Assembly: GCF_900143265.1 (NCBI RefSeq)
Contig: NZ_FRDJ01000004.1
Coordinates: forward strand, 62,001 to 126,000
Source of the DNA: Fervidobacterium gondwanense DSM 13020
GTDB lineage: Bacteria; Thermotogota; Thermotogae; Thermotogales; Fervidobacteriaceae
Length of the DNA: 64,000 nt
Direction of reading: 5' to 3'
Below the pieces are notes generated by a model. That model had not been told where the DNA came from. It saw only the letters and a list, made by a program, of their open reading frames with translations, and did no database searches. Position 1 is the stretch's first letter, and each line of letters opens with the position of its first letter. Of the stretch, positions 7,026 to 41,156 are shown in pieces. Made by a program: the position numbers and the translations under genes.

Positions 7026-7121
7026 TTTTGCAAAGCTAATTTCTAAAAATTCGTATAGCGAACTATTAGATTTTGTGATAAAATTTTCTTAGCTATCACA
7101 ATATCGATGAAGGTGGTTTAG

Positions 7122-7370: not shown

Positions 7371-9684
7371 AAATCATGTGGATGATTTTTTAGAAATTTT
7401 GACATATGAAAAAAGGTTTTGGAAAGATTTTTGGGAGAACCTGCCGTTCAAGCCTATAACGGAAAACTATGCAAGTTCCTTCTCGAACTTTTTTGAAAGA
7501 TTATTGAATATCTCAAGGAACGAACTAACAGAGTTTTCTCATGATTACGAAACGAAAAAAGAGTCTTTGAAAGAAGAGCTATCAATTAGAATAAGGCAAC
7601 ACGCTCGAGATTTGGAACTATCCAAAGAAGATTTTGTCGTGTATTTAATCGCAGGTCTTGGAGAGAAAGACTGGATTGTTGTCGATGGTAAGAAGGAAAA
7701 AGTAATCGTATTCGACGTGTTTTCTCTGTGGAGAAAGGGTAAGTTCGACAATTTACCGGATGCAGTCTATCAAGCAGCTGTGCACTTCAGACACGGAGAA
7801 AATGAAGGGAATTATTACGATAAGTCCGAGATTTTCAGCTATTTGAAAGATGAAATTTCGCGTTTAAATGGAACAGATATTTTACAGAAAGTCTGTGAAC
7901 TCCTTGACAGGAACGTTCCTTACTACAACTGGACAGGTTTTTACCTTATGGACGAGGAAGGGATGCTTGTTCTTGGACCATACGTAGGCGAACCAACAGA
8001 ACACGTTAGAATCGCTGTCGGAAAAGGTATCTGTGGCCAAGCTGCTGAGACAAAACTCACATTCGTTGTTCAGGACGTAACACAAGAGACAAATTACCTC
8101 TCTTGTAGCCCACATGTTAAGAGCGAGATAGTCGTTCCAATATTCAGAAACGACGGTTCAGTCTTTGGAGAAATAGACATAGATAGCCACTACAAAGCGC
8201 CATTTGATGAAAGAGACAGAGAATTCTTAGAATGGATTGCACAACAGCTTAGGGTTAAAGTAGTGCATTTTCAAGAGTTCAACAGAAGAATCAAAATAGC
8301 GTATCTTGATAGTTATGTGTCGTATTTATTGAGTGAAATCGTAAAGTACGAAATTCCAATGTCCGTGGATCTTTTCATATATTACGAACCAGAAAAAGTT
8401 CCAGAGAATCTGTACAAATTCTGGAGGATAGCTCGTAAACTTCCAAACGCATATGTAGGTAAGGTAGTCGTTGTAGACAGCGTTGAAGATCAAAAAGTTG
8501 TAATCACATCCACTCACGGCGAGTACACACTTACGTATGAAGCCCTGAATCTTTCAGCATCTGACATAGTTTACAAAATGATTAGAGAAACTACACCTTA
8601 CATTTCAAAAACGCTCTTCGAAATACACCAAAATGCTACAAGATTCGCGCAGAGTTTTGTGAACACCAGTTTGATAACAGAGTATGTCCTTAAACCAGAG
8701 AGCGACATCAATAAAACGTTCTACGCATTCTTAACAGGTATCACTGCGGGCTACTCCGGTTCGTTTAACAGGGCCATGTTCTTCTATCATCGGAATGGAA
8801 ATTTTGTCTTTCAAAAAGCAATAGGTCCTCGGACACTTGAAGAAGCTCAAGAATTGTGGGAAGCAATTGAAGATGTGGAATTAAATATGACTGACTTTCT
8901 CGAAACAGTTTCAAAGGATTTTAAATCTGAAATAGAAATGCTTTACAAAGCAAAAGCCATTCCTGCAAAAATCTTGAACGAGTTCCTCGATGGTGAACCT
9001 CATATAGTCAACAGAAACATATTGCCAACAGTTGCTGACGATTTTGACATCACAAATGAGTTTGCTATCATGGCTTTGAAAAGCGGTGATAGTATTGTTG
9101 GCCTCTTGCTCGCTGACAATAACTTTGACCAGAAGAGTATAACAGATTATCAATTGAGCGTTTTGCAAAATCTCGGAAATTTGATGGTTTTGGTCATCGA
9201 AAACAGGAGATTTTTAGAAACCCTTAAAGAGCGAGCGGAAATCGATGCTCTGACAGAACTTAAAAGCAGAAGGGCTTTTGAGGAATTCATCAGCAACATA
9301 CATCCGAACCAAAGCTTCTCAATAGTTTTCTTAGATCTCAATAAGTTCAAAGTCATAAACGATACCCAAGGACACGAAAAAGGCGATGAAATTTTGCGAG
9401 TTTGGGGTAAATGCGTGAACAATAGTATTAGAAAAGATGATATTGCTTTCCGATATGGAGGCGACGAAGTGGTACTTATCTTAAACACGCTGGAAAAATC
9501 AGATATTGAAAAGGTAGTCCACAGAATAGAAGAGTGTTTTAGGAACTCTACAAGTCTTACGTTCTCTTCTGGAGTTAGTTTCTATCCAAGTGAGGGAGAT
9601 ATCCAACATGTTCTTAGATTAGCTGACGAGCGCTGTTACAGGTCAAAGCTTTTTGGAAAAATAGAATTTCCAAGCCAAAAGTAG
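7354..9684 (+). CDS. fRMsr-like GAF plus GGDEF protein (probable diguanylate cyclase)
   Basis: A 776-residue cytoplasmic signalling protein. An uncharacterised N-terminal region (1-165) precedes a GAF domain (about 165-305) that looks like free methionine-R-sulfoxide reductase: YNWTGFYL, LVLGPYVGEP, GKGICGQAAET, LSCSPHVKSEIVVPI and GEIDIDSH, including two of that enzyme's conserved cysteines. A divergent middle region (about 310-610) follows, then a GGDEF domain (about 620-770) with DALTELKSRRAF, FLDLNKFKVINDTQGHEKGD and YGGDEV, so the catalytic signature is intact. RKDD, five residues before GGDE, matches the product-inhibition I-site RxxD. ATG at 7354 follows AGGGGTGA; a GTG at 7345 is an alternative. 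Confidence 0.85.
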   Translation: MRSLIENHVDDFLEILTYEKRFWKDFWENLPFKPITENYASSFSNFFERLLNISRNELTEFSHDYETKKESLKEELSIRIRQHARDLELSKEDFVVYLIAGLGEKDWIVVDGKKEKVIVFDVFSLWRKGKFDNLPDAVYQAAVHFRHGENEGNYYDKSEIFSYLKDEISRLNGTDILQKVCELLDRNVPYYNWTGFYLMDEEGMLVLGPYVGEPTEHVRIAVGKGICGQAAETKLTFVVQDVTQETNYLSCSPHVKSEIVVPIFRNDGSVFGEIDIDSHYKAPFDERDREFLEWIAQQLRVKVVHFQEFNRRIKIAYLDSYVSYLLSEIVKYEIPMSVDLFIYYEPEKVPENLYKFWRIARKLPNAYVGKVVVVDSVEDQKVVITSTHGEYTLTYEALNLSASDIVYKMIRETTPYISKTLFEIHQNATRFAQSFVNTSLITEYVLKPESDINKTFYAFLTGITAGYSGSFNRAMFFYHRNGNFVFQKAIGPRTLEEAQELWEAIEDVELNMTDFLETVSKDFKSEIEMLYKAKAIPAKILNEFLDGEPHIVNRNILPTVADDFDITNEFAIMALKSGDSIVGLLLADNNFDQKSITDYQLSVLQNLGNLMVLVIENRRFLETLKERAEIDALTELKSRRAFEEFISNIHPNQSFSIVFLDLNKFKVINDTQGHEKGDEILRVWGKCVNNSIRKDDIAFRYGGDEVVLILNTLEKSDIEKVVHRIEECFRNSTSLTFSSGVSFYPSEGDIQHVLRLADERCYRSKLFGKIEFPSQK

Positions 9685-20868: not shown

Positions 20869-22008
20869 ATGGACTACTTACTGAGCAAAGAACAGATACT
20901 TGCAAGGGAGCTTTTTAGAGAATTTGCTGAGAAAGAGGTAAAACCTCTCGCACAGAAAGTAGACGAGAAAGAGTACTTTCCGATAGAAACTGTAAAGAAA
21001 ATGGCAGAGATAGGTATGATGGGCATACCATTCCCAAAAGAAGTCGGTGGTGCAGGAGGAGATTATTTAACATACATAATTGCTGTTGAAGAACTTGCAA
21101 AACATTGTGCGACAACGGCGATAATCTTGTCTGCCCACACTTCCCTTTGCTGCTACCCGATTTATGCCTACGGAACACCAGTTCAAAAGGAGAAATACCT
21201 CAGACCTTTACTAAAAGGTGAGAAGATTGGAGCTTTTGCTTTAACTGAACCCAACGCGGGAAGCGATGCAGGGAATCAGCAAACAACGGCAAAATTAGTC
21301 GGAGAGTATTACATTCTGAATGGATCGAAAATATTCATAACCAACGGTGGAAAAGCTGACGTATTCATCGTCTTCGCAATGACGGATAAATCAAAGGGAA
21401 CAAAAGGTATAAGTGCATTCATCGTTGAAAAGGGATTCGAAGGTTTCAAGATAGGCAAGGAAGAGCACAAGCTTGGAATCCGCGGTTCATCAACAACTGA
21501 ACTGATATTTGAAGACTGCAAAGTACCGAAAGAGAATCTCCTTGGAAGCGAAGGTCAAGGTTTCAAGATTGCACTTAGTACGCTTGATGGTGGAAGGATT
21601 GGAGTTGGCGCACAAGCACTCGGCATAGCAGAAGGTGCAATCTCAGAAGTCCTGAAGTACGTTAAGGATAGAAAACAGTTTTCAAAACCGATTGGCACAT
21701 TTCAGGGATTGCAGTGGTACATCGCAGACATGATAACAAAAACAGAGGCTGCTAAATTGCTTGTGTATAACGCAGCAATAAAGAAGGATAAAGGGCAACT
21801 GACAAGCGCCGATGCGGCTATGGCAAAGAAATACGCTTCCGATGTGGCTATGGAAATTACAACTCAGGCTGTCCAAATCTTCGGCGGTTACGGATATACA
21901 AGAGATTATCCTATCGAACGAATGATGAGAGATGCGAAGATCACTCAGATTTACGAAGGTACAAACGAAATCCAGAAGTTAGTGATCGCTGCTCAATACA
22001 TTAAGTGA
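20869..22008 (+). CDS. Acyl-CoA dehydrogenase (butyryl-CoA dehydrogenase-like)
   Basis: A 379-residue FAD enzyme interconverting short-chain acyl-CoA and enoyl-CoA. Family motifs: GAFALTEPNAGSDAG (about 125), IFITNGGKADVF (about 157), QIFGGYGYTRDYPIERMMRD (about 340) and the catalytic-glutamate segment QIYEGTNEIQ (about 363), which places the base as in butyryl-CoA dehydrogenases. It heads an operon with etfB and etfA, the arrangement in which Bcd and EtfAB form a complex that can bifurcate electrons between crotonyl-CoA and ferredoxin. Thiolase and hydroxyacyl-CoA genes are absent here, so the full pathway is not shown. Confidence 0.92.
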   Translation: MDYLLSKEQILARELFREFAEKEVKPLAQKVDEKEYFPIETVKKMAEIGMMGIPFPKEVGGAGGDYLTYIIAVEELAKHCATTAIILSAHTSLCCYPIYAYGTPVQKEKYLRPLLKGEKIGAFALTEPNAGSDAGNQQTTAKLVGEYYILNGSKIFITNGGKADVFIVFAMTDKSKGTKGISAFIVEKGFEGFKIGKEEHKLGIRGSSTTELIFEDCKVPKENLLGSEGQGFKIALSTLDGGRIGVGAQALGIAEGAISEVLKYVKDRKQFSKPIGTFQGLQWYIADMITKTEAAKLLVYNAAIKKDKGQLTSADAAMAKKYASDVAMEITTQAVQIFGGYGYTRDYPIERMMRDAKITQIYEGTNEIQKLVIAAQYIK

Positions 22009-22027
22009 TAGCTCAGAGGTGATTATG

Positions 22028-22807
22028 ATGAGAATAATCGTATTCACAAAGCAAGTGCCTGATACAACCGAAGTAAAAGTTGACCCTGTGAAGGGAACTC
22101 TGATAAGAGACGGCGTGAAATCAATAATGAATCCAGAAGACAAGAATGCGCTTGAAGCCGCTTTGAGAATAAAGGATTCTATTGGAGCGAAAGTTACGGT
22201 AATTACGATGGGACCTCCGGCTGCTGAAGCTATTTTGCGAGAAAGCTATGCAATGGGTGCAGACGAAGCAATTTTGATAACAGACCCACTTTTTGCAGGC
22301 GCCGATACTTGGGTAACGAGTATGATTTTGGCAAGAGCAGCTCAAATTATAGGTTATGACCTCATACTGTGTGGAAGGCAGGCTATTGACGGAGATACCG
22401 CACAAGTTGGAATCGAGATCGCAGAGCACCTCGGCATACCAGCCATCGCTTACGCGACGGATATCAGGACAGAGAACGAAAAGATACTTGTTACTCGTGA
22501 ACTTGAAAACGTGTATGAAGTAATATCTGTAAACACTCCGTGCTTAATTACATGCTCTAAAGAACTAAACATACCCAGATACATGCGGATATACAACATA
22601 TTCGGTTGCTTCGATAAACCAATAACAGTCATGAACAATTCTGTTTTGAAATTCGACAAAATGGAAGTCGGGTTAGTGGGCTCGCCCACAAAGGTAAGAA
22701 GAACGTTCACAAAAGGTCCTAAAGAACAGGGCAATGTTGTCAATCTATCAGCACAAGAGTCGGCCGAAGTGCTTGTTTCAGCATTAAAACGACTTCACGT
22801 GATATGA
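22028..22807 (+). CDS. etfB: Electron transfer flavoprotein beta subunit
   Basis: A 259-residue EtfB: MRIIVFTKQVPDTTEVK start, INPEDKNALEAALRIKD-type segment (SIMNPEDKNALEAALRIKD), and LCGRQAIDGDTAQVGIEIAE, the AMP/FAD contact region. It pairs with EtfA to pass electrons to or from the acyl-CoA dehydrogenase encoded just upstream. GAGGTGA at 22015-22021 supports ATG 22028 (or 22025). Spacing of about 19 nt from the preceding gene shows cotranscription. Whether the subunit carries the bifurcating FAD needs modelling. Confidence 0.93.
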   Translation: MRIIVFTKQVPDTTEVKVDPVKGTLIRDGVKSIMNPEDKNALEAALRIKDSIGAKVTVITMGPPAAEAILRESYAMGADEAILITDPLFAGADTWVTSMILARAAQIIGYDLILCGRQAIDGDTAQVGIEIAEHLGIPAIAYATDIRTENEKILVTRELENVYEVISVNTPCLITCSKELNIPRYMRIYNIFGCFDKPITVMNNSVLKFDKMEVGLVGSPTKVRRTFTKGPKEQGNVVNLSAQESAEVLVSALKRLHVI

Positions 22808-22831
22808 TGGCGCGAGAAAGAGGTGAACAAA

Positions 22832-23836
22832 ATGATAATGGTTTTTTGTGAACAAAGAAATGGCGAGCTGTTAAACGTCGGGCTTGAGCTTATCGGAAAA
22901 GCGAGAGAGCTCGCTCGCTCACTTGACTGCGAAGTATCCGCAGTTGTATGCGGGCACAACGTGGGATACATAGGCAACAGGTTGATACAAAACGGAGCCG
23001 ACAAAGTCTTCGTAATTGAGCATGAATTATTAGAAAAGTACACGCTCGATTTGTATACCGAATCCCTTTACCAACTCATATCCAACGAAAAGCCTGATAT
23101 CTTACTGCTGGGCGCAACGAGTATCGGGAGAGAACTCGGTCCGAGGCTTGCAGCACGGTTAAAAACGGGACTTACCGCTGATTGTACACAATTAGAAATA
23201 GGCCAAGAAACAAAGCTTCTACTGATGACAAGACCTGCGTTTGGTGGAAACTTAATGGCAACGATAATATGTCCTGACAGAAGACCCCAGATGGCAACAA
23301 TAAGACCTGGCATATTTCCATTACCATCTATGGACGCTAACAGAAAAGGTGAAACTATTCTCTTTAATCCGAAGATAACGAGAGAAGATTTAAGAGTTAG
23401 AGTGGAAAAAATTGTCCAGAAGATAAGGACTGTGAAAGATATTACTGCAGAAAAAATTATCGTTGCGGGTGGAAGAGGCATCGGTTCAAAGGAAAATTTT
23501 GAATTGCTTGAAGAACTTGCAGAACTACTCGGAGGCGTAGTTGCTGGCTCAAGAGCCGCCGTCGATGCCGGATGGTTACCAAAGGAACTCCAAGTTGGAC
23601 AGACTGGAAAGGTTGTGAAACCAAAGCTTTATATAGCGGTGGGAATAAGCGGTGCTATCCAGCACGTTGCAGGAATGCAAGATAGTGAATACATAATCGC
23701 AATCAACAAAGATCCAGACGCACCTATAATGAAGATAGCAGACCTTGGTATCGTGGGAGATTGGAAAAGCGTTGTCAAAGCTCTGATAAAAGAGTTGAGA
23801 AATGAAAAAGGTATTTTGGAAGAAAAGATATCCTAA
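22832..23836 (+). CDS. etfA: Electron transfer flavoprotein alpha subunit
   Basis: A 334-residue EtfA. The N-terminal half (MVFCEQRNGELLNVGLELIG) is the EtfB-like fold; the C-terminal FAD domain carries IVAGGRGIGSKENF (about 210), GSRAAVDAGWLPKELQVGQTG (about 245) and YIAVGISGAIQHVAGM (about 275), all FAD-contact motifs. ATG 22832 follows AGAGGTGA. It completes the operon and is followed by a strong terminator. Confidence 0.94.
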   Translation: MIMVFCEQRNGELLNVGLELIGKARELARSLDCEVSAVVCGHNVGYIGNRLIQNGADKVFVIEHELLEKYTLDLYTESLYQLISNEKPDILLLGATSIGRELGPRLAARLKTGLTADCTQLEIGQETKLLLMTRPAFGGNLMATIICPDRRPQMATIRPGIFPLPSMDANRKGETILFNPKITREDLRVRVEKIVQKIRTVKDITAEKIIVAGGRGIGSKENFELLEELAELLGGVVAGSRAAVDAGWLPKELQVGQTGKVVKPKLYIAVGISGAIQHVAGMQDSEYIIAINKDPDAPIMKIADLGIVGDWKSVVKALIKELRNEKGILEEKIS

Positions 23837-23849
23837 TCCTTATGAGACA

Positions 23850-23878
23850 AAAAGCGGGAGACTTTCCCGCTTTTTTTT
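23850..23878. terminator. Bidirectional terminator between etfA and the MFS gene
   Basis: Stem AAGCGGGA (23852-23859) and TCCCGCTT (23865-23872), A-rich on one side, eight Ts on the other. Confidence 0.88.
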
Positions 23879-25082
23879 ATTTTTCAATCAATAATTGCCC
23901 TTTCTCATTTTTTGTTTTAGCAGAGTACTTTGGCAAGAAGAGACTTCCAAACACTATAGCGCTCAAAAACATAGCAAAACCTTCAACAACTCCTAAATAC
24001 TTCGCACCGATGTACTGAACAATGGTAGCACCAAGAACTGGAGATATTATTCTCATAAGGCTATCTACTGAATTAAAGATTCCAAGGGCTCCTCCAAGCT
24101 TATCTTTGCTCACTAATTTAGTAGCCATTGAACTAATAGAAACACCTAAAACGGCTGAAAATACGGAAAGTGGTGCAAGCAGTACTAGTAAAACTGGAAT
24201 ACTCTTCGCAAAGGAATACAGCACAAGAAAAGGTACCGCGAGGAATATACCATACCTTATCAAATCCGCTTCGGAGTACTTCTTAGTTAACTTCCCAATC
24301 AAGAACCCTTGTACGAAGACTATTATTACACCAACATACGCCAGTATGAAACTCGTTGTTGATACAGGCAGATTCAAGCGGCTGATAGCAAAGAGTGCAA
24401 ATGTAGACTCAAACATTGTGAAACCGAGAGAATAGAAGAACTTCGTAAAAAGCAAGCTCGCCACAGCTGGTTGTGAAAATGTTTTCTTGAGCTCTTGAAA
24501 CGTGAATGGTTTAGACTTTGAATCTCTGACAGGCTTTGAATCTGGCAGGAATAATAATATGTTGATTATGTTGATAAGTGACAAACCCGTTGCAAAAAAC
24601 GCTGGTACGCGCATTCCCCACTGGCTTAAAAAACCTCCGAATGCCGGTCCAAAGATAAATCCAAGCCCAAAAGCAGCACCTATAAGCCCAAGGCTTTTCG
24701 TTCTCGATTTTTCGTCAGTAAAATCACCTATGTAACTTTGTGCAACCGTAATGTTCCCACCCGTCAGTCCGTCGAATAATCTTGAAAAAAATATCAAGCT
24801 CAATGACTTTGCAAAGCCTAAAATCAAGAGTGAAACGAACGTGCCACCAACACTTAGAAGTAGAGCCCTCTTTCTGCCGTATTTGTCTGATAACCTGCCT
24901 ATCAAAGGAGAGGCAAAGATTTGACCCAGTGGATAAACAGACCCAAGTAGACCTATCATTAAAGCCGAAGCTCCGAATTCTTTCGCATAGTATGGTAGAA
25001 GTGGTATGATTAACCCGAAGCCAAGCATATCCGCCAAAACAATGAAAAACAAAGTTCTTAATACATTTCTCTCTTTACCCAT
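23877..25082 (-). CDS. MFS drug/solute efflux transporter (DHA1, TetA-like)
   Basis: A 401-residue twelve-helix major facilitator. The family signature GRLSDKYGRKRALLLS lies between helices 2 and 3 (about 61-76), with LFDGLTGGNITVAQSYIGD (motif D/C region, about 108) and LGLIGAAFGLGFIFGPAFGG (about 132), which is the antiporter motif of efflux pumps. The closest characterised relatives are tetracycline and multidrug exporters, but the substrate cannot be named from sequence. ATG follows GGAGGAT. Monocistronic, divergent from the sugar kinase. Confidence 0.88.
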   Translation of the reverse strand: MGKERNVLRTLFFIVLADMLGFGLIIPLLPYYAKEFGASALMIGLLGSVYPLGQIFASPLIGRLSDKYGRKRALLLSVGGTFVSLLILGFAKSLSLIFFSRLFDGLTGGNITVAQSYIGDFTDEKSRTKSLGLIGAAFGLGFIFGPAFGGFLSQWGMRVPAFFATGLSLINIINILLFLPDSKPVRDSKSKPFTFQELKKTFSQPAVASLLFTKFFYSLGFTMFESTFALFAISRLNLPVSTTSFILAYVGVIIVFVQGFLIGKLTKKYSEADLIRYGIFLAVPFLVLYSFAKSIPVLLVLLAPLSVFSAVLGVSISSMATKLVSKDKLGGALGIFNSVDSLMRIISPVLGATIVQYIGAKYLGVVEGFAMFLSAIVFGSLFLPKYSAKTKNEKGQLLIEK

Positions 25083-26922: not shown

Positions 26923-28236
26923 ATGAAGAAGTTCTATCTTTTGGTCGCTGCTCTTTTAACGGTTTTTGTCTTATTCAGTTGTACCAACTCGTTTGAACCG
27001 AAGTTCGAACCAAGAGAGAAGTTTGATGTTTCTGAAAAGCTCGGTATTTCAGGAACTGAAGAAGACTTTGTGCCAGGCGAATACGTTGTCCAGTTTGAGC
27101 CGAGGGAGAACGCCATCAAAAGCTTAGCAAGCGTTGGCGCAGAAGTTGTAAGAACTTACAGTTTTGAGGATGTTCAAATCGTCACAGTGAAAACTGAACA
27201 ACCAGAACTTTTATCTAATCTTCCAGGTGTTAAATCAGTAGATAAAAACTACATTTACAGAGCGCTTGCAACACCAAACGATACATACTACAGCTATCAA
27301 TGGCACTATAACAATATCAAACTTCCACAAGCATGGGATATAATGAAATCCGCAAGTGTTGTTGTCGCTGTTATTGACACTGGAGTAAGCTTCACACATC
27401 CAGACCTTCAAGGTATATTTGTTTCCGGCTACGACTTTGTTGACAGTGACACAAATCCAACAGACCCATCACAAGATGTAAGCCACGGTACACACTGTAT
27501 AGGTACTGTTGCAGCCCTTACAAACAACAGTTTGGGTGTTGCTGGTGTAAACTGGGGTGGATACGGAATAAAGATAATGCCAATAAGAGTGCTTGGTGCT
27601 GATGGTAGCGGAACACTCGACAACGTTGCAGCTGGTATAAGATGGGCTGTTGACAATGGAGCAAAAATCGTTAGCATGAGCCTTGGTGGTGGCGGAGCAC
27701 AAGTGCTTATGGATGCGGTTAAGTACGCCTACAGCAAGAACGTAACTTTAATATGTGCAGCTGGTAACGAAAATAGATCAAGTCTGTCTTACCCGGCAGC
27801 CTACGTCGAAACAATAGCAGTCGGTGCGACGAGGTATGATAACAGGAGAGCACCATATTCAAATTACAACTATACAAGATACTATGATCCATATAGAAAA
27901 GCTTATGTAACCCACTATCTCGACATTGTAGCCCCCGGTGGAGACACGAGTGTTGACCAAAACGGCGACGGTTACGCAGATGGTGTTTTGAGCACAACAT
28001 GGACACCGACAAATGGCAATACCTATATGTTCTTGCAGGGAACTTCTATGGCAACGCCACACGTTTCCGCTCTTGCAGCAATGCTGTATGCAAGAGGATA
28101 CACAACACCAGAAGCAATAAGGAGTAGGTTGATTAGAACAGCTTACAAGATACCGGGCTACACGTACAACTCAAGTGGTTGGAATAAATATGTAGGATAC
28201 GGACTAATCGATGCGTATAAAGCACTCACGTATTAA
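26923..28236 (+). CDS. Subtilisin-like serine protease, lipoprotein-type signal (fervidolysin-related)
   Basis: A 437-residue S8 family protease. The N terminus ends in a lipobox-like VLFSC, so the enzyme is probably lipid-anchored outside the cell. An I9-type propeptide (about 45-110, YVVQFEPRENAIKSLASVGA) acts as folding chaperone. The catalytic triad is visible: Asp in VIDTGVSFTHPDL (about 151), His in HGTHCIGTVAAL (about 188) and Ser in GTSMATPHVSALAA (about 374), with the oxyanion Asn in CAAGNENRSS. It resembles fervidolysin, the keratinase of Fervidobacterium pennivorans, but ends after the catalytic domain and lacks that enzyme's C-terminal beta-sandwich domains. RBS GGGGGGAGAAGGG precedes ATG. 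Confidence 0.93.
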   Translation: MKKFYLLVAALLTVFVLFSCTNSFEPKFEPREKFDVSEKLGISGTEEDFVPGEYVVQFEPRENAIKSLASVGAEVVRTYSFEDVQIVTVKTEQPELLSNLPGVKSVDKNYIYRALATPNDTYYSYQWHYNNIKLPQAWDIMKSASVVVAVIDTGVSFTHPDLQGIFVSGYDFVDSDTNPTDPSQDVSHGTHCIGTVAALTNNSLGVAGVNWGGYGIKIMPIRVLGADGSGTLDNVAAGIRWAVDNGAKIVSMSLGGGGAQVLMDAVKYAYSKNVTLICAAGNENRSSLSYPAAYVETIAVGATRYDNRRAPYSNYNYTRYYDPYRKAYVTHYLDIVAPGGDTSVDQNGDGYADGVLSTTWTPTNGNTYMFLQGTSMATPHVSALAAMLYARGYTTPEAIRSRLIRTAYKIPGYTYNSSGWNKYVGYGLIDAYKALTY

Positions 28237-28673: not shown

Positions 28674-29789
28674 ATGAGATATTTGATATTCGCAGCATTC
28701 ATTGTTATATCTATTCTGTACTATATTTCTGGCAGAGATAGAATACTGAGAAGAACAAACGGGCTTAAAGACAGAAAAGAAATCGCTGAAAAAAAAGTTT
28801 CAGTGATAATTCCAGCAAGGAACGAAGAAGAGAACCTCAAAAAGCTCCTTCCGTTGGTCTGCTCTCAGCAGTTCCCTGCGCACGAAATCATAGTCGTTGA
28901 TGATAACTCTACCGACAAAACTTCAGAAATCGCTACATCTTTTGAGGAAGTAAAGTTGGTAAAACTAAAAGAAGACCCACCAGATGGCTGGGTCGGAAAG
29001 TCTTGGGCACTGTGGAATGGTTTTCTAAACTCTTCTGGAGATTATCTTCTATTCTTGGATGCAGATGTTGAACCTTCAGACAAGTTAATTGAGTACCTTT
29101 CGGTTCAACGTGCTTACCACGGGGGGCTAATATCCGTATGGCCTTATCAAAGGCTCGAGAAATTTTATGAGCACCTCACTTTACCATTCAACTTGCTTGT
29201 AATATACGCGAGTAACACTTTGGGTTTTCCTGGGAAGATTGCAAGAGGCTCTTTTGGTCCTGTTGTCTTTACTTCAAGAGAAGACTACGAAAAGACTGGA
29301 GGCCACAGCACTATAAGAGACGGGATTTTGGAAGATATAAAATTAGCCAAGTTATACGCTAAACACGGCATAAAAGTGACGAATTTCCTTGGCGATGGTT
29401 TAGTCCAATTTAGGATGTATCCTAACGGGATAAAACAGCTACTCGAAGGTTTTTCAAAAAATATGTCTTCGGGAGCAATAACTGGTGGTACTTTTGCATT
29501 CTTATTAGCACTTATATGGATGGCTGGAATTTATACTTCTATACAAAATATCACCAGTATATTCCTTGAGACGAACAACATTTTAGATGTACTGATTAAA
29601 ACAGCTAACTATCTCATCGTCGCGCTATTTATTCGCTTGCTATCCAAAGATACTGGACAGTACAGAATCTACGATGCATTATTCTACCCAATCCATTATA
29701 TTTTCTTCTTAATAGTTTTCTTTTATTCTTTGTATCTAACGTTGCTTAAGAAACAGGTCTACTGGCGAGGAAGGAAATTAAAGGTATGA
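28674..29789 (+). CDS. Membrane glycosyltransferase family 2, CrtQ-like
   Basis: A 371-residue GT2 enzyme. One N-terminal helix (3-18) anchors the catalytic domain: VSVIIPARNEEENL (about 43), VVDDNSTDKT (about 76), LLFLDADVEPS (about 127, the metal-binding DxD) and the acceptor-site region RDGILEDIKLAKL (about 222). Three to four C-terminal helices (about 265-360) resemble the architecture of 4,4'-diaponeurosporenoate glycosyltransferase CrtQ and hopanoid/ceramide-type glycosyltransferases. It would glycosylate a lipid at the inner membrane face. It begins the operon; its stop overlaps the next start in ATGA. Confidence 0.85.
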   Translation: MRYLIFAAFIVISILYYISGRDRILRRTNGLKDRKEIAEKKVSVIIPARNEEENLKKLLPLVCSQQFPAHEIIVVDDNSTDKTSEIATSFEEVKLVKLKEDPPDGWVGKSWALWNGFLNSSGDYLLFLDADVEPSDKLIEYLSVQRAYHGGLISVWPYQRLEKFYEHLTLPFNLLVIYASNTLGFPGKIARGSFGPVVFTSREDYEKTGGHSTIRDGILEDIKLAKLYAKHGIKVTNFLGDGLVQFRMYPNGIKQLLEGFSKNMSSGAITGGTFAFLLALIWMAGIYTSIQNITSIFLETNNILDVLIKTANYLIVALFIRLLSKDTGQYRIYDALFYPIHYIFFLIVFFYSLYLTLLKKQVYWRGRKLKV

Positions 29790-30412
29790 CTTTCTACTGG
29801 TTCGCCCTAATAGTTTTGCAATTTATATCCGGATCCATAATGTATTCGCATATATTTGCCAAAATTCTCGGGATTGACTTGCGCAAGGTGCGTGATGGAA
29901 ATCCTGGTTCGACAAACTTGTGGCGTGCCGCCGGATGGAAATGGGGGTTCTTAGCCCTTGCTCTTGATTATTTCAAGGGCGTGCTCCCACTTGCAATTTT
30001 TGCTTGGAATACAGAACTGAAAATTAGCCCTTACATTGTCAGCTTAGCCGCATTAGCTGGTATTGCAGGTCACGCTTTTTCACCTCTGCTCCGTTTTAAT
30101 GGTGGAAAGGCGATAGCAACGACATTCGGCGCTTGGTCAGTTTTGACAAGGTGGGAAGGTCCGACAGTGCTCGGCATTACATTCACATTGTTCTCCATAG
30201 CGAACAAATTAATGAAAAGGAAAGGAACAACACCTGAAACAGATGCTCTGCGGGTTTTTGTAGGATTCTTTTTCCTTTTGCTTTACACCTTATGGAAATC
30301 ACTTAACGGTTCTCCGGAACTGATTTTACTGTACGTAGGTAATTTACTAATCATCGCTTACAAACACAGAAGGGAAATAACAAAATTGGTAAAAGGCAGG
30401 TGCAAGGCATGA
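29786..30412 (+). CDS. PlsY-like glycerol-3-phosphate acyltransferase family protein
   Basis: A 208-residue membrane protein of the PlsY family, which transfers acyl groups from acyl phosphate to glycerol 3-phosphate. Motif 1 GSIMYSHIFAKI, motif 2 RDGNPGSTNLWRAAGWKWG, LDYFKGVLPL, GHAFSPLLRFNGGKAIATTFG (motif 3) are visible. Its start is translationally coupled to the glycosyltransferase, which suggests acylation of a glycosylated or isoprenoid product rather than bulk phosphatidate synthesis; the housekeeping PlsY is probably elsewhere (inference). Position 2 in the operon. Confidence 0.85.
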   Translation: MTFYWFALIVLQFISGSIMYSHIFAKILGIDLRKVRDGNPGSTNLWRAAGWKWGFLALALDYFKGVLPLAIFAWNTELKISPYIVSLAALAGIAGHAFSPLLRFNGGKAIATTFGAWSVLTRWEGPTVLGITFTLFSIANKLMKRKGTTPETDALRVFVGFFFLLLYTLWKSLNGSPELILLYVGNLLIIAYKHRREITKLVKGRCKA

Positions 30413-31173
30413 GAAGGGCTTTAGCAATCATACTGCTTGTGTTAATCTCCTCTGTGCTATCTTCAGCAAACAGCGTTGAATTTTACGAAAAAACATTTCA
30501 ACAAGCGCGTTCTTTGAAAAACGAAGCGCAACTCTCTAAACTAATCAAGGACCTTGAAAACTTGATTTACGGAAGTAATAATCCAGATAAAGAAGAATTC
30601 AATGAGAAGGAACTGGAAAAAGTCAAGGTAATACTATCTGAAACCTACTTTGAATATTCAGAAATATTATTAGAGAGGCAAAAGAAAGAGGAACTTCTGA
30701 GAAAATCGCTCGAGCTTTCTGAAGACATACTTAAATTCAACCAGCAAAATGGCAGAGCGTACTACGTAGCGAGCATGTGCTCTGCAAGGCTTATTGATTT
30801 TGTTAATGTATTTGGAAAGCTAAACCTTTTGAATAAATTCGACGCATACATAGATAATGCAATTAGATATTCGAACGATTATATTTACAAAGGTCTATCA
30901 TTCATGGCAAAAGCAGTGCGGTACATGTCAGCTCCCTGGCCCTTTGGAGATACTAAAAAGGCTTTGGAGAATTTTAAAGAAGCAGAGAAGTACATAGGTG
31001 ATTACTCTGGTGTACACTTGTACCTTGCCGAAATTTATCTCAAGCTCGGGGATAAAAAATCTGCGGAAAATTCCCTAAGAATGGTTTTAAATCTACAACC
31101 ACACCCTTACTTTTTAGTCCAACACGAAACGAACGTTAAAGTTGCTCAACAAATACTTCAAAACTTAAAGTAA
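30409..31173 (+). CDS. Exported TPR-repeat protein (TatT-like)
   Basis: A 254-residue protein with a signal peptide (about 1-20, ALAIILLVLISSVLSSANS) and a helical body. Tetratricopeptide-like pairs occur around 55-110 (YFEYSEILLERQKKEELLRKSLELSEDILKFN cut into helices) and 190-230 (VHLYLAEIYLKLGDKKSAENSLRMVL). The order resembles TatT, a periplasmic TPR protein of TRAP transporters, but no TRAP genes are near. It probably scaffolds the neighbouring membrane enzymes or carries a lipid in the periplasm (inference). ATG 30409 overlaps the plsY-like stop in ATGA. Confidence 0.65.
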   Translation: MRRALAIILLVLISSVLSSANSVEFYEKTFQQARSLKNEAQLSKLIKDLENLIYGSNNPDKEEFNEKELEKVKVILSETYFEYSEILLERQKKEELLRKSLELSEDILKFNQQNGRAYYVASMCSARLIDFVNVFGKLNLLNKFDAYIDNAIRYSNDYIYKGLSFMAKAVRYMSAPWPFGDTKKALENFKEAEKYIGDYSGVHLYLAEIYLKLGDKKSAENSLRMVLNLQPHPYFLVQHETNVKVAQQILQNLK

Positions 31174-31184
31174 GGAGGAGTCTT

Positions 31185-31730
31185 ATGCGCTATCTATTTT
31201 GGTTATCGGTGGTTGCTTGGTGGATAATGGATTTCTACGTGCTTGTGCTGAGAAAAGGTTCATACTCTAAGATACTTGACAAGAAGAGCAAACTTGTAGT
31301 TGTAGTACTGATTTTAATTGGTGTTATTTTAGCTGTCGCTCCAGAAAACTTCAGAACCGTTTGGCGAACAAGAGAATTCGGGGCGTTTCAGATATTTGGT
31401 ACGTTCACCGTTCTGTTCGGAGTAATCATTCGACTCTTGGCAATATTGAACCTTGGCGAACATTTCTCTGGTGACATAGTAATCGGACCAGAGAAGAAAC
31501 TTGTTCAAAGGGGGCTATATAAGAAAATTAGACATCCAAGTTACACTGGCGAGATTATTTCGTTCATTGGGCTTGGCCTTGTTTTTCAACATATTCCGTC
31601 TTCAATCTTTATCTCCGTATTCCCTTTCTTGGCGTTCTTGTATAGAGCAATACTAGAAGAAAAGAATTTGCACAGGGAATTTGGAGATGAGTTCATTGAA
31701 TACAAAAAGCGAACGAGGATGTTTATATGA
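31185..31730 (+). CDS. Isoprenylcysteine-methyltransferase-like (ICMT/PEMT fold) membrane protein
   Basis: A 181-residue membrane protein with four to five helices. The conserved C-terminal cofactor region reads LVQRGLYKKIRHPSYTGEII (about 105) and EEKNLHREFGDEFIEYKKRTRMFI (about 158), the RHPxY and E-E-L-F-Y pattern of ICMT and phospholipid methyltransferases. Bacterial members methylate lipids or small hydrophobic carboxylates; protein prenyl-cysteine is not expected here. In this operon it may methylate a hydroxyl or carboxyl of the product (inference). ATG follows AAGGAGGAG, 11 nt after the TPR gene. Confidence 0.8.
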   Translation: MRYLFWLSVVAWWIMDFYVLVLRKGSYSKILDKKSKLVVVVLILIGVILAVAPENFRTVWRTREFGAFQIFGTFTVLFGVIIRLLAILNLGEHFSGDIVIGPEKKLVQRGLYKKIRHPSYTGEIISFIGLGLVFQHIPSSIFISVFPFLAFLYRAILEEKNLHREFGDEFIEYKKRTRMFI

Positions 31731-31748: not shown

Positions 31749-32732
31749 GTGATTAAGAATCAATGGTACGTTATAATGTCATCACATGAAGTGAGAAAAG
31801 GGCACTTGGTTGGCGTTACAAGATTCGGAGAAAAACTTGCTATATGGAGAGACAACGATGGTGCTGTGCATTGTATATCTGATATTTGCTGCCACAGAGG
31901 AGCATCCATATCGCACGGAAAATTGCTCCACGAAGGGCACGTCGCAATGTGTCCATTTCATGGTTTCGAATACGACCCAACGGGCAGAGTAATCGCTATT
32001 CCTGCATATGGAAGAAAGACACCTGTCCCTGAAAACTTCAAAGTTAAGTCTTACAAAGTATATGAAACTGCAGACTTTATATGGCTATGGTACGGTGATG
32101 GAGAACCAACGAGTAACCCAAAGTATTTTGACGATATTGACGAAAGCTTATCTTACAGCGAATTTAGCGAAGTGTGGAACGTACACTACAGCAGAGCAAT
32201 TGAAAACCAATTGGACCCAATACACGTGCCTTTTGTCCATTACAACACCATCGGGCGCGGAAATCGAACAGTTTCCGACGGACCTATCGTTAAATGGATT
32301 AGCGATACGATGTTCTATTTTTACGTATTCAACAGAATAGACGACGGAACGCCAGCTAAAAAACCTGAAGAACTCGATATCAACGAGGCAAGTAGAGTGT
32401 ATTTAGAATTTAAATTTCCAAACATATGGCAAAATCATATAGACGAGAAAATCAGAGTTACCGCTGAATTTGTGCCAATAGACGATGAACACACTCGAAT
32501 TTACTTACGCTTTTATGTTGGGTTTACAGGAATAAAACCTATCGATAAGCTCATAGCCATATTAGGTACACCTTTCAACAAAAAGGTCCTCCACCAAGAC
32601 AAGGCAGTTGTTGAAACACAGCTGCCAAAGAAGAGCGAACTTAGAATGGGAGAAAACCTCGTTCAAGGCGACGCACCGATTTTGGAGTACAGAAAAAAGA
32701 GAGAGGAATTGAAAATGCTTAATAACAAATGA
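31749..32732 (+). CDS. Rieske [2Fe-2S] non-heme iron oxygenase, alpha-subunit type
   Basis: A 327-residue Rieske oxygenase. The Rieske cluster ligands are CCH (about 47-49) and CPFH (about 68-71), 18 residues apart. The mononuclear iron site is NQLDPIHVPFVH (about 153-164), giving Asp plus two His ligands. The protein is short compared with naphthalene dioxygenase alpha subunits and resembles single-component types such as those acting on sterols, chlorophyllide or other large hydrophobics. These enzymes insert O2-derived oxygen, which is odd in an obligate anaerobe. No reductase gene lies in the operon, so electrons must come from elsewhere. GTG start follows GGGGGAG. Confidence 0.9.
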   Translation: MIKNQWYVIMSSHEVRKGHLVGVTRFGEKLAIWRDNDGAVHCISDICCHRGASISHGKLLHEGHVAMCPFHGFEYDPTGRVIAIPAYGRKTPVPENFKVKSYKVYETADFIWLWYGDGEPTSNPKYFDDIDESLSYSEFSEVWNVHYSRAIENQLDPIHVPFVHYNTIGRGNRTVSDGPIVKWISDTMFYFYVFNRIDDGTPAKKPEELDINEASRVYLEFKFPNIWQNHIDEKIRVTAEFVPIDDEHTRIYLRFYVGFTGIKPIDKLIAILGTPFNKKVLHQDKAVVETQLPKKSELRMGENLVQGDAPILEYRKKREELKMLNNK

Positions 32733-32753
32733 AAAATGAGAGGGAGATTTTAT

Positions 32754-33221
32754 ATGGAAAGAATTGAAAGAACTGAAAACCAGGGGTATACCATAACTTC
32801 CTTAGAACAACTTTTGCAACTATGGACTAAAACGTACAATAGCGAAGGTAAGCCGGATTGGTCTCATTTATTGCCTTATTATGATGAAAACATACACTTT
32901 CGAGACACCGTGCAAGAAATACACGGCATAGAAGAGTTCAAAAAGATGGTTGAGAGGCTCACGAAAAGGTCTCAGGAACTGCACATGAACATACTCAACG
33001 CAGTTATGGATGGAAATATCATCTTCGTTGAATGGGATATGATAATAAACTTCAGAAAGACGAAAACATCGGTAGTCCACGGTGCTAGTAGGTTGGTCAT
33101 TGGCGGGAATGGAAAGATAGTAGACCAGAGGGATTATTACGACCTCTGGGGTGATATATTCGACAACATACCAGGCTTTGGAAAGCTGTACCGAAAATTC
33201 ATGAAGAGGGTGTTCGGATGA
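32754..33221 (+). CDS. NTF2/SnoaL-like protein
   Basis: A 155-residue cone-barrel protein. The pattern LLQLWTKTYNSEGKPDW, YYDENIHFRDTVQEIHGIEE, DGNIIFVEWDMIIN and HGASRLVIGGNGKIVDQRDYYD is typical of the nuclear transport factor 2 family, which includes SnoaL cyclases, steroid isomerases and ligand-binding proteins. The WxxYY ending (QRDYYDLWG) is shared by many SnoaL-like members. It may isomerise or cyclise the hydrophobic intermediate of this pathway (inference). Start set at MERIERT after GAGGGAGAT; an earlier in-frame ATG (32736) is less likely. ATGA overlap with the SDR. Confidence 0.78.
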   Translation: MERIERTENQGYTITSLEQLLQLWTKTYNSEGKPDWSHLLPYYDENIHFRDTVQEIHGIEEFKKMVERLTKRSQELHMNILNAVMDGNIIFVEWDMIINFRKTKTSVVHGASRLVIGGNGKIVDQRDYYDLWGDIFDNIPGFGKLYRKFMKRVFG

Positions 33222-34207
33222 GCAATGCGTTCAAAAGCTGTTCTGTAAAGAAATATTGGTTCAAGTATAAATGGAACATAGTATTTGAAATGATAAAGAA
33301 CATGAGCAAGAAACCTGATATATGTAATGACTCTTTCGACGGGAAGACCGTTGTAATAACGGGTGCAACATCTGGAATTGGATATGAAACAGCCAAGAAA
33401 TACGCCTCTATGGGTGCCAGAATAATATCGGTAAATAGAAGCAAAGAAAAGTCAGAAAGATTGTGTTACGAACTGAAAGAGAAATACGAAGCTGAATGTT
33501 ATTACATTTTAGCAGATCTGAGCAAGATAGCTGACATCAGAAGAGTTGGGTATGAGCTATCAACATTGGATGAAAAAATAGATGTTCTAATTCACAACGC
33601 AGGTTTGTACACAAATAAGAGGACAATAACGGACGATGGTTTGGAATTGAACTTCGTAGTTCACTACTTAGCACCATTTTTGATTAACCAAATGATACTC
33701 GAAAAGCTCAAGAAGGATAAAAACTCTCGAATAATTTTTGTAAGTTCAGAGGCGTATAGATTCGCTGCTTGGGGCATATGCCTTGACGATTTGCTTTGGG
33801 AAAAACACAGGTATTCAGGCTTAAAAGCATACGGTTCAGCAAAATTGGCTCAAATCTTGAGCATGCATGTATTTTCGAAAATGGTAAAAGGTCATGGAAT
33901 AATGGTGAACGCAATGCATCCAGGGTTTGTTAAGACAAATACGGGCTCCGAAAATGGTCCTATTTATAAATTCTTCAAGAAAAACATCTTAGACAGGCTA
34001 TCCCAAGAACCGACAATTTCAGCCGAAGCGCTTTACTATCTCGGTGCATCTAAAGATTTAGATGGTATAACAGATAAATTCTTCCATTTAACGACCATCG
34101 AAGAACTGACACCACCAGCAAAAGACTTAGAACTTGCAAAAGCTCTGTGGAATAAAACAGAACAGATCATTCGAAATCTGGGAATAGACATGGGGGTAAG
34201 AGTATGA
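33218..34207 (+). CDS. Short-chain dehydrogenase/reductase, retinol-dehydrogenase-like
   Basis: A 329-residue SDR. NAD(P) binding motif TGATSGIGYETA (about 47-58), NAG in HNAGLYTNKR (about 127), catalytic Ser in IIFVSSEAYRF (about 172) and YxxxK in YGSAKLAQIL (about 204), so the active site is complete. Similarity is to retinol dehydrogenases, the SDR group that oxidises or reduces long hydrophobic alcohols, which suits a lipid pathway. An N-terminal 40-residue extension precedes the fold. ATG overlaps the NTF2-like stop, and its own stop overlaps the next start. Confidence 0.87.
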   Translation: MSNAFKSCSVKKYWFKYKWNIVFEMIKNMSKKPDICNDSFDGKTVVITGATSGIGYETAKKYASMGARIISVNRSKEKSERLCYELKEKYEAECYYILADLSKIADIRRVGYELSTLDEKIDVLIHNAGLYTNKRTITDDGLELNFVVHYLAPFLINQMILEKLKKDKNSRIIFVSSEAYRFAAWGICLDDLLWEKHRYSGLKAYGSAKLAQILSMHVFSKMVKGHGIMVNAMHPGFVKTNTGSENGPIYKFFKKNILDRLSQEPTISAEALYYLGASKDLDGITDKFFHLTTIEELTPPAKDLELAKALWNKTEQIIRNLGIDMGVRV

Positions 34208-35808
34208 AGAGAGTAGTTATCGCAGGCGGAGGAATCGCTGGTTTAACTGCTGCCGTATACCTCGCACGGAAAGGATTTAACGTCAAGCTTTTTGAGAAGA
34301 ACGAAAAGTGCGGTGGACTCGTTAACACGTTTGATTACAACGGATTTAAATTCGAAGGAGGTGCCCGCGCACTTGTTAATGCAGGTGTCATAACCCCCAT
34401 GGTTGAAGATTTAGAGCTTGACGTTGAATTATTGAAAAATCCTGTTTCAATAGGTATCGAAGACAGAATTATGACAGTCAACGGTGAGAAGAGTTTACTA
34501 GAATATGCAGAGCTTCTCAAAAGTAAGTATCCTGAATCTCAGGACGACATACAGAGGCTAATTGAAACCGAAAGGAAAATTCTTGAACACATGAAAGTAT
34601 TATACGGCATAGATAATCCGCTTTTCTCTTTCAATAAGATAAGAGAAGAAGGAAAACTTATGCAGATGATGGGAAGGTATTTTTTGTGGTTTTTCAAATT
34701 TCTCGGAACAGTTAGAGAGATTAACGCTCTGAAAGAACCTGTAGAAGAATACTCAAGCAGAATCATCAGGAATAACTCTTTAAGAGATATAGTCATTCAA
34801 CATTTCTTCAGAGGTACGCCTTCGTTCTTTGCTCTTAGCTATTTCTACTTGTTCAACGACTATCTGTACCCAAAAGGCGGTGTTGGTAAATTTCCTGAGG
34901 CTTTAGTTAATAAGATTACCGAATTTGGTGGAGAGATACTTACTAACAACCAAATCGTCAAAGTAATTCCCGGAAATAACACTGCCGTAGATGAAAAAGG
35001 AAACGAACACCGGTATGATTTCTTAATTTGGGCAACTGATTTGAAGGCATTTTACAAATCACTCGACACGCAGGGGATAAACGGACATGCACTCAAAAAG
35101 CTGGAAGACGAAAAACAAAAAGTTCTTTCAGCACGCGGTGCAGAATCGGTTATAACCTTTTACTTTGGTGTCGACGAACCGGTTGAAACTTTTGGCAAGA
35201 TATCAACTGGGCACTTCTTCTACACACCTTCAAGACAAGGTCTTGGCGAAACTAATCGCTCAAGAGTAAAACATATCGTAGAAAATTACGAAAAACTGAG
35301 CAAAGAAGAAATTCTGCAGTGGTTAGAAGAATTCATCAAATTCAACACGTATGAAATATCGATACCGGCTCTGCGAGACAAATCGATGGCACCGGATGGT
35401 AAGACCGGATTAATTGTAAGCATGCTAATCGACTATGATATAGTGAAAAGGATAAATGACGAGGGTTGGTACGAAGAATTTAAACAAAAGACTGAAGAGC
35501 TCATAACCGATAACCTTGCCAGCACAATATATTCATTTTTGAAAAACAAGATACTCTTCAGATTTACGTCCACGCCTTTGACAATAGAACGAATGTACGG
35601 AACGTCAGAAGGCTCTATAGTTGGATGGTCTTTCGAAAGCGAATTGCCAGTTCCTTCCGGAATATTCAGCATGACAACTTCAGTTAAAACGCCTATCGAA
35701 AACATATACAAAGCTGGAAAATGGGCTTACGCACCAGCTGGCGTTCCAACCGCGATAATCACAGGTAAACTCGCATCTGATGTGATAATAAAGAATTCAA
35801 ACAAATAG
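34204..35808 (+). CDS. FAD-dependent phytoene desaturase/CrtI-like oxidoreductase
   Basis: A 534-residue flavoprotein of the CrtI / retinol-saturase group (COG1233 type). The dinucleotide fold VVIAGGGIAGLTAAVYLARKG (about 4-24, here cited as GGGIAG at 8-13) is followed by GGLVNTFDYNGFKFEGGAR, YLYPKGGVGKFPEALVN (about 222) and the C-terminal ENIYKAGKWAYAPAGVPTAI region that closes over FAD. Members saturate, desaturate or isomerise isoprenoid chains. As last gene of the operon, with a terminator following, it completes a set able to reduce, oxidise, glycosylate and acylate a hydrophobic core. Confidence 0.88.
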   Translation: MKRVVIAGGGIAGLTAAVYLARKGFNVKLFEKNEKCGGLVNTFDYNGFKFEGGARALVNAGVITPMVEDLELDVELLKNPVSIGIEDRIMTVNGEKSLLEYAELLKSKYPESQDDIQRLIETERKILEHMKVLYGIDNPLFSFNKIREEGKLMQMMGRYFLWFFKFLGTVREINALKEPVEEYSSRIIRNNSLRDIVIQHFFRGTPSFFALSYFYLFNDYLYPKGGVGKFPEALVNKITEFGGEILTNNQIVKVIPGNNTAVDEKGNEHRYDFLIWATDLKAFYKSLDTQGINGHALKKLEDEKQKVLSARGAESVITFYFGVDEPVETFGKISTGHFFYTPSRQGLGETNRSRVKHIVENYEKLSKEEILQWLEEFIKFNTYEISIPALRDKSMAPDGKTGLIVSMLIDYDIVKRINDEGWYEEFKQKTEELITDNLASTIYSFLKNKILFRFTSTPLTIERMYGTSEGSIVGWSFESELPVPSGIFSMTTSVKTPIENIYKAGKWAYAPAGVPTAIITGKLASDVIIKNSNK

Positions 35809-40088: not shown

Positions 40089-41156
40089 TTATATTTTCTC
40101 CACTTCACTTACATGTACCGATACTGGTGTTTCCCTACCAAAGATCGTTATCATTACCTTCAGTTCCTGCTTTTCTTCGTCAACTTCTTTAACAACTCCG
40201 ACAAAGCCCTCGAATGGACCGGTGACAATCTTCACAGAATCGCCTTGTTGTACTTCCAATTCCACCTTCGTTACTTTTGCAGCTTCAGCTTGATGTACTT
40301 CTTCAAGTCCAGCCAATCTCTTTATGTAATGGACTTCCTGCGGTTTCAATGGCAACGGTCTACCACCAGCGGAAACAAATCCCATTACAAACGGTGTTCC
40401 TCTGACGAATTCCCATGTATGATCATTCATTATCATCTCTACAAACAAGTATCCTGGATAGAGTTTCCTCTTCTTTGTCTTCTGGACGATAATTTCTCTT
40501 CTTGTCGGGTAATCGACTATAGCAACTCTTCCAGTACTCTTAGAAAATATCTTTCTGCCCTCAGCTAACGTTTGCCCCGCTTTCACCTGCACGCCTTTCT
40601 TGCATGCTGCGGAATTAAATACATCACCGTGTATTACATACGCATCTTCGTCACCAAGTATTGTTCTGACAACGACCTTCTTAACCTTTTCATTTATAAC
40701 AACCTTACCATCTATATCACAAATATATTCATCGCTCGATGCTAAGAACGTTCCCTGAAAAACGTTGGCTCCTACTCTTAATCCCGAAACTGGCTTTGCA
40801 GATTCTGGAATAACGTAAGTCTTTGAAAATTTCTTATCAGTTGTTTCAATAACAATCCTTCTTGCGTTTATCACTTCGGCGATCGTGCCATCTCTCCTAA
40901 CCTTTATCGCTGGTTCTTCGGCAAGAAGAGCTCCTTTTTCAACGTCCTTACCATTGCTCACGTGAAGTTTTGCTTCGTGAGAAATGATATGCCTCTCCAG
41001 AGACTTGCTCGACGTGTCGATAACTATTTCTTCCAACACGACTACATTCGGGATAATAGACTCATAACCTTGAGCTTTAATTTTAGCATCAAGGTTCTCT
41101 TTAACCCTATTTTCATACCCGGTAATGGTATGAATTATGTACCATTCCTTTTTCAT
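40089..41156 (-). CDS. nusG: Transcription elongation/antitermination factor NusG with large insertion
   Basis: A 355-residue NusG, about twice the E. coli length. The NGN domain starts KEWYIIHTITGYENRVKENL and is interrupted at about residue 45 by an insertion of roughly 170 residues, resuming at KRKLYPGYLFVEMIMNDHTW. The KOW domain ends the protein (QQGDSVKIVTGPFEGFVGVV). The insertion is the extra domain known from Thermotoga maritima NusG. It binds RNA polymerase and couples it to Rho, the ribosome or termination control. GAGGTGA precedes ATG. Confidence 0.96.
   Translation of the reverse strand: MKKEWYIIHTITGYENRVKENLDAKIKAQGYESIIPNVVVLEEIVIDTSSKSLERHIISHEAKLHVSNGKDVEKGALLAEEPAIKVRRDGTIAEVINARRIVIETTDKKFSKTYVIPESAKPVSGLRVGANVFQGTFLASSDEYICDIDGKVVINEKVKKVVVRTILGDEDAYVIHGDVFNSAACKKGVQVKAGQTLAEGRKIFSKSTGRVAIVDYPTRREIIVQKTKKRKLYPGYLFVEMIMNDHTWEFVRGTPFVMGFVSAGGRPLPLKPQEVHYIKRLAGLEEVHQAEAAKVTKVELEVQQGDSVKIVTGPFEGFVGVVKEVDEEKQELKVMITIFGRETPVSVHVSEVEKI

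Follow-up and report, generated by a model that had tools for sequence, protein, structure and literature searches.

A predicted Rieske oxygenase of Fervidobacterium gondwanense and its clade in anaerobic bacteria and archaea

Fervidobacterium gondwanense DSM 13020 encodes a protein that is, judged from its sequence and modelled fold, a Rieske non-haem iron oxygenase alpha-subunit with a predicted catalytic function, in which the Rieske ligands, the 2-His-1-carboxylate site and the bridging aspartate are all present. The architecture of the enzyme itself is ordinary. The protein is not a lone oddity, since alignments and phylogeny place it in a broad clade of anaerobes, and the combination of an intact oxygenase with ligand-conserved relatives across oxygen-avoiding bacteria and archaea means that anaerobes appear to keep a shared oxygenase of unexplained role. 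Our favoured explanation, held tentatively, is a real Rieske oxygenase that uses trace O2 and borrowed electron carriers and probably acts on a lipid or another hydrophobic substrate.

Rieske oxygenases are regarded as enzymes of aerobic catabolism. The conservation of every catalytic residue in acetogens, clostridia, Lokiarchaeia and Thermotogales, mostly without terminal oxidases, raises the question of which O2-consuming reaction anaerobes keep, and why. The clade would also supply heat-stable, single-component candidates for biocatalysis, and would allow testing whether Rieske chemistry runs without O2.

The gene and its predicted product

The gene lies within a window of 64,000 nucleotides, the whole stretch of DNA analysed here (contig NZ_FRDJ01000004.1, positions 62,001 to 126,000), and has a GTG start codon with the Shine-Dalgarno-like sequence AAGGGGGAG immediately 5' of it (Table 1). 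A full Pfam scan of the protein returned two domains, Rieske (6.4e-24) and VanA_C (2.3e-12), the latter at 47.9 bits against a Pfam cut-off of 23.5, as found for oxygenases of the VanA/DdmC type. The motifs CCH-N18-CPFH and DPIHVPFVH, which an earlier note on this DNA had read as intact, do supply the cluster ligands, the bridging aspartate and two iron ligands, with C48 of the CCH serving as a spacer and not as a ligand. That note had regarded loss of the third carboxylate as decisive against an oxygenase; the carboxylate is present as D284, within LHQDKAVVETQ, and its counterpart Asp280 completes the iron site of SxtT together with His164 and His169 and is a published iron ligand of SxtT/GxtA (PMC7293229). 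All eight ligand and bridge residues are invariant in an alignment of 15 Thermotogota sequences and in one of 52 diverse relatives; N153, the counterpart of SxtT Asn158, is also invariant in the latter. Furthermore, ligand motifs read at the match coordinates are complete in 79 of 80 relatives (the best 80 of 414), the exception being a frameshifted copy (L115).

Table 1. Features of the oxygenase gene and its surroundings, in positions of the window
Feature	Position	Strand	Remarks
MFS transporter	23877..25082	-	directly divergent from GT2 in several relatives; adjoins Rieske gene in Thermoflexus (L042)
GT2 glycosyltransferase, weakly CruG/HpnB-like	28674..29789	+	most constant partner in Thermotogota
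Divergent PlsY-like acyltransferase	29786..30412	+	below PlsY equivalog cut-off
TPR protein, signal-like N terminus	30400..31173	+	
ICMT/DUF1295-like membrane methyltransferase or reductase	31185..31730	+	
Rieske non-haem iron oxygenase gene (predicted)	31749..32732	+	327 aa; Pfam Rieske and VanA_C; AlphaFold pLDDT 93.5; Foldseek to SxtT/GxtA, DdmC, NdmA
Rieske [2Fe-2S] ligands C47, H49, C68, H71	31887..31961	+	invariant in both alignments (15 Thermotogota; 52 relatives)
Bridging Asp D156 and iron ligands H159, H164	32214..32240	+	invariant in both alignments
Third iron ligand D284	32598..32600	+	counterpart, by alignment, of Asp280 in SxtT/GxtA and the conserved Asp in NdmA
SnoaL-like protein	32736..33221	+	accessory; missing from many relatives
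Short-chain dehydrogenase (SDR)	33218..34207	+	accessory
CrtI-like FAD-dependent oxidoreductase	34204..35808	+	accessory

An AlphaFold2 model of the monomer, built from 52 sequences, has a mean pLDDT of 93.5 and a pTM of 0.90, and contains both the Rieske domain and the helix-grip catalytic domain (Foldseek E 1e-23 to SxtT/GxtA). In the PDB, the model best matches SxtT/GxtA, dicamba monooxygenase and NdmA (E 1e-23 to 4e-21, TM 0.70-0.80). A soluble Rieske ferredoxin, the identity that the earlier note held would overturn its proposal, consists of a Rieske domain of about 100 residues only and is ruled out by a length of 327 residues and the catalytic domain. Comparison with relatives gave dN values of 0.10-0.18 with dS saturated, which indicates purifying selection. 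Taken together, the ligands, the fold and the low dN point to an intact oxygenase kept by selection, neither a ferredoxin nor a relic.

Among characterized enzymes, SxtT/GxtA (SxtDIOX) is the top PDB match by both sequence and fold, falls into the same length class and has the same Rieske and 2-His-1-Asp sites, but it is only about 20% identical to the Fervidobacterium protein, lies outside its clade, and belongs to other hosts and another pathway. DdmC, NdmA/NdmB and VanA are likewise single-subunit alpha-type oxygenases with a VanA_C-like catalytic domain, and NdmA aligns with the Fervidobacterium protein from end to end, third ligand included. However, these enzymes have their own dedicated reductase, whereas none was found with the Fervidobacterium gene. 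The highest NCBIfam match is to the 4beta-methylsterol monooxygenase SdmA (78.3 bits, residues 4-267), and the operon in the window also contains an SDR, yet this score is far under the curated cut-off of 600 bits for NF052579. No match to the pheophorbide a oxygenase domain (PaO/CAO/TIC55-type) was found in the Pfam scan. The earlier suggestion that the nearest functional type acts on large hydrophobic rings was thus not borne out, since neither the PaO-type domain nor the SdmA cut-off was reached and the nearest solved relatives, SxtT/GxtA, DdmC and NdmA/NdmB, hydroxylate or demethylate compact ring compounds.

A clade carried mostly by anaerobes

Scanning GTDB genomes yielded 414 relatives. 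The 80 best come from Thermotogota, Chloroflexota, Bacillota, Lokiarchaeia, Spirochaetota and some other groups, and include no Pseudomonadota or cyanobacteria. In the tree, 85 of 95 rows form one clade (SH-aLRT 99, stem 1.08) separate from eight plasmid-borne oxygenases, NdmA and SxtDIOX, although its boundary is provisional because the outgroup is sparse and has long branches. The closest named relatives in the tree are Fervidobacterium and other Thermotogota, and the Thermotogota sequences group with one from a Thermococcaceae archaeon (96). The closest match among 72,556 plasmids is 29.5% identical. The hosts are mostly anaerobes, namely Thermotogota, Clostridia, Lokiarchaeia, Spirochaetota and anaerobic Chloroflexota. 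Neither a haem-copper oxidase (COX1) nor a cytochrome bd was found in 46 of 55 carrier genomes, while COX1 and cytochrome bd each score over the cut-off in 7 genomes; many of these genomes are incomplete MAGs, so that such an absence is no proof for each genome. The distribution is patchy, with the gene in only 6 of 251 sampled Chloroflexota.

Acquisition by transfer, which had been raised as a possibility, is rejected as a recent event because the composition of the gene shows no signal (GC 0.41 and GC3 0.41, against 0.40 in the window) and 17 of 45 genomes from the order carry the gene. Old transfers are implied by the spread of the family across many phyla.

Rieske oxygenases in Thermotogae are already known: a list from 2017 gives homologues of ring-hydroxylating oxygenases in which the motifs are intact, among them Fervidobacterium pennivorans AFG35170 and T. 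maritima AAD36358 (PMC5209329). That list differs from the present account in that it does not cover the clade in other anaerobes, the operon, the oxygen-defence neighbours or the oxidase-free hosts. What is new here is a clade distinct in its hosts and context; no prior account of such oxygenases as a clade of anaerobes with oxidase-free hosts, an oxygen-defence context and shared partner genes was found in the open-access literature. It is conceivable, though somewhat unlikely, that this distinct and old family is a shared trait of strict anaerobes, bacterial and archaeal, that lack terminal oxidases, with a conserved reaction that would use trace O2 or none and might belong to a response to oxygen or light stress that co-occurs with heliorhodopsin.

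The operon and the substrate

In the window, the genes are ordered GT2, PlsY-like, TPR, ICMT/DUF1295-like, Rieske, SnoaL-like, SDR and CrtI-like. Over 16 Thermotogota loci, GT2 and PlsY are the commonest partners and TPR and ICMT genes are often present, while SnoaL, SDR and CrtI genes occur only in some. The Thermotoga-type copies of the Rieske gene, which are 55% identical, stand without this operon and are adjoined by a small membrane protein. One Thermotogales genome has two Rieske copies, and beside its Fervidobacterium-type copy (L024, genome G035, 5738-9266) the GT2 gene is frameshifted and remnants of SnoaL and CrtI genes are found with an intact Rieske gene.

On gene context alone, a hydrophobic substrate is plausible, since the constant partner genes encode a glycosyltransferase, a PlsY-like acyltransferase and proteins of the membrane; in Fervidobacterium the substrate would most likely be a membrane lipid, an isoprenoid or another hydrophobic compound. 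The recurrence of GT2, PlsY and MFS genes by the Rieske gene in Thermotogota and in Thermoflexus, where PlsY, GT2, Rieske and MFS genes stand together (L042), favours this explanation, as does the presence of PlsY and GT2 genes in an Anaerolineae locus (L044). Against it, the GT2/PlsY context is limited to Thermotogota and a few Chloroflexota, and the top matches, in both sequence and fold, are enzymes whose substrates are small polar ring compounds and not lipids.

Those same matches give the next candidate its footing. The protein could be an ordinary Rieske enzyme that O- or N-demethylates, or hydroxylates, small aromatics or heterocycles met at oxic-anoxic interfaces, its neighbours being incidental, as its closest solved relatives (SxtT/GxtA, dicamba O-demethylase and NdmA/NdmB), its VanA_C domain and the solitary position of the gene in most phyla would suggest. 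This is unlikely, however, since all of those relatives are about 20% identical and fall far outside the clade, no catabolic genes recur beside the Rieske gene, and the retention of one gene in Clostridia, Lokiarchaeia and Thermotogota is more in keeping with a general cell function than with niche catabolism.

Two pathways were also considered. A usual carotenoid operon is rejected for the host genome, in which no phytoene or squalene synthase was found. The furan fatty acid pathway, in which UfaD is phytoene-dehydrogenase-like (PMC7380195), is a mere resemblance, since that pathway includes no Rieske enzyme.

Electron supply, oxygen and light

The host genome (2.15 Mb, 99% complete) contains a single Rieske domain in a PF00355 search. 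Neither COX1 nor cytochrome bd was found in it, which supports the premise of the earlier note that the host is an anaerobe. As had also been noted, the operon contains no reductase or ferredoxin. Only one PF00175 protein of the host also carries a plant-type Fer2 domain, and it is encoded within an Nqr/Rnf-like operon. No redox partner dedicated to the oxygenase was thus found, and its electrons probably come from an unlinked general carrier. Many genuine Rieske oxygenases have unlinked partners, so the absence of one does not exclude membership. Adjoining the Nqr/Rnf-like operon (L129, 10529-11831, G000 contig 2) are genes for a protein with repeated cytochrome-b5-like stretches and for a small membrane protein. 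In Acetobacterium, a Rieske ferredoxin-like gene lies two genes 3' of the oxygenase (L077, 11469-11813; L083, 11499-11843) and may encode an electron donor there.

A rubredoxin or a phytoene-dehydrogenase-like neighbour has been proposed as the partner (PMC5209329), but the absence of the latter gene from many Rieske loci argues against a general role. The CrtI-like neighbour is likewise rejected as a generally required partner or reductase, as SnoaL, SDR and CrtI genes are missing from several Thermotogota loci with an intact Rieske gene, and in G035 the SnoaL and CrtI genes are mere remnants.

The use of trace O2 and a general electron carrier, as the earlier note proposed, still appears to be the best reading. 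Upon micro-oxic exposure, the predicted oxygenase, expected from its relatives to be a trimer, would use trace O2. A non-dedicated carrier, such as a ferredoxin, a rubredoxin or an NqrF/Rnf-type flavoprotein, would reduce the Rieske cluster, and the electron would pass via D156 into the adjacent subunit, to the iron bound by H159, H164 and D284, which would activate O2 so that the substrate is hydroxylated or demethylated. Had electron transfer and iron chemistry been lost, the invariance of the full ligand set, including D156 and D284, from Thermotogota to Lokiarchaeia would be difficult to account for. O2 is available to such anaerobes, in that T. maritima, which carries an orthologue of the Rieske oxygenase, grows with 0.5% O2 and produces ROS defences under that condition (PMC3065215). 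Set against this trace-O2 reading are the occurrence of oxygen-defence neighbours in a minority of loci and the failure to find a dedicated electron donor in the host genome.

No neighbourhood conserved across all phyla was found, nor any conserved one outside Thermotogota, and the gene stands alone in most phyla. Nevertheless, rubrerythrin and desulfoferrodoxin (superoxide reductase) genes adjoin it in a member of the Spirochaetota (Pfam-confirmed in L045), a hemerythrin gene is a neighbour in five Clostridium loci (Pfam-confirmed in L063), MsrA/MsrB genes are neighbours in five Lokiarchaeia loci (Pfam-confirmed in L105), and an AhpC/TSA-like gene overlaps its start in one locus (Pfam-confirmed in L054). 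In the Thermococcaceae archaeon (L069), genes for ferritin-like, rubrerythrin and Fur proteins lie about 4-6 kb away. In 13 of 74 loci, oxygen-defence families are found within 2.5 kb of the gene, and in 2 they are found farther out (19 matches in 335 kb, compared with 5 in 738 kb), an enrichment that is partly circular because the families were picked from neighbours already seen; two clades account for 10 of these 13 loci, leaving about five independent cases. The oxygenase may thus be linked to oxygen stress.

Such neighbours, which include peroxiredoxin-like and photolyase genes, would also fit a protein that scavenges or senses O2 or ROS, that is, a reductase with O2 or peroxide as its substrate and no dedicated organic one, and most carriers are without terminal oxidases. 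This is decidedly unlikely, given that the named anaerobes already own dedicated scavengers such as rubrerythrins, that characterized Rieske oxygenases couple O2 to an organic substrate, and that the linked GT2 and PlsY genes in Thermotogota do not fit. Less probable still is an O2-independent reaction evolved within the clade, for example radical-free redox chemistry, dehydration or hydrolysis at the iron: although 46 of 55 carrier genomes are without both oxidases and the hosts include acetogens, Lokiarchaeia and Thermococcaceae, the O2-activating residues, including the bridging Asp and N153, are all invariant, and the oxygen-defence neighbours point to contact with O2.

Light-related genes form a further set of neighbours. 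In the Anaerolineae locus (L044, 6983-11138; heliorhodopsin and Staygreen Pfam-confirmed), a heliorhodopsin gene lies 66 bp downstream of the Rieske gene and is followed by Staygreen, PlsY and GT2 genes; in the Thermococcaceae locus (L069, 9156-11400), a heliorhodopsin gene lies 51 bp upstream. These two loci are unrelated, and no recurrent Rieske link beyond them was found in the heliorhodopsin neighbourhoods of 15 genomes. Staygreen, lycopene cyclase and tocopherol-cyclase-like genes (Pfam) occur near the Rieske gene in a third locus (L050), and a photolyase gene adjoins it in four Chloroflexota (Pfam-confirmed in L054 and L061). Heliorhodopsin is encoded somewhere in 18 of 46 non-Thermotogota carriers, 15 of which are without phytoene synthase. 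Among Bacillota, it occurs in 8 of 24 Rieske carriers against 10 of 398 sampled genomes (p 1e-6), or 6 of 22 against 8 of 396 once shared genomes are removed (p 2e-5), in tests that ignore relatedness. In the reverse, case-control test, which is suggestive only, the counts were 2 of 9 against 2 of 70 (p 0.06), and a 39-residue fragment makes up one of the two; the heliorhodopsin link is thus a lead. A tetrapyrrole, carotenoid or retinoid oxygenase tied to light, acting in chlorophyll breakdown as plant PaO does or in a heliorhodopsin chromophore step, would account for these genes, among them that of the Mg-dechelatase Staygreen, and for the Bacillota counts, but is highly improbable given the weak case-control result, the lack of a PaO Pfam match, a host genome in which neither phytoene synthase nor heliorhodopsin was found, and the majority of Rieske loci without light genes.

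Elsewhere in the window, genes for an acyl-CoA dehydrogenase and the beta and alpha subunits of ETF (20869-23836) lie a few kb upstream of the operon in this fermentative anaerobe, and a subtilisin-like protease with a fervidolysin-type prodomain is encoded just upstream of it (26923-28236). A NusG-like protein of 355 aa, far longer than usual owing to a large insert, is encoded at 40089-41156.
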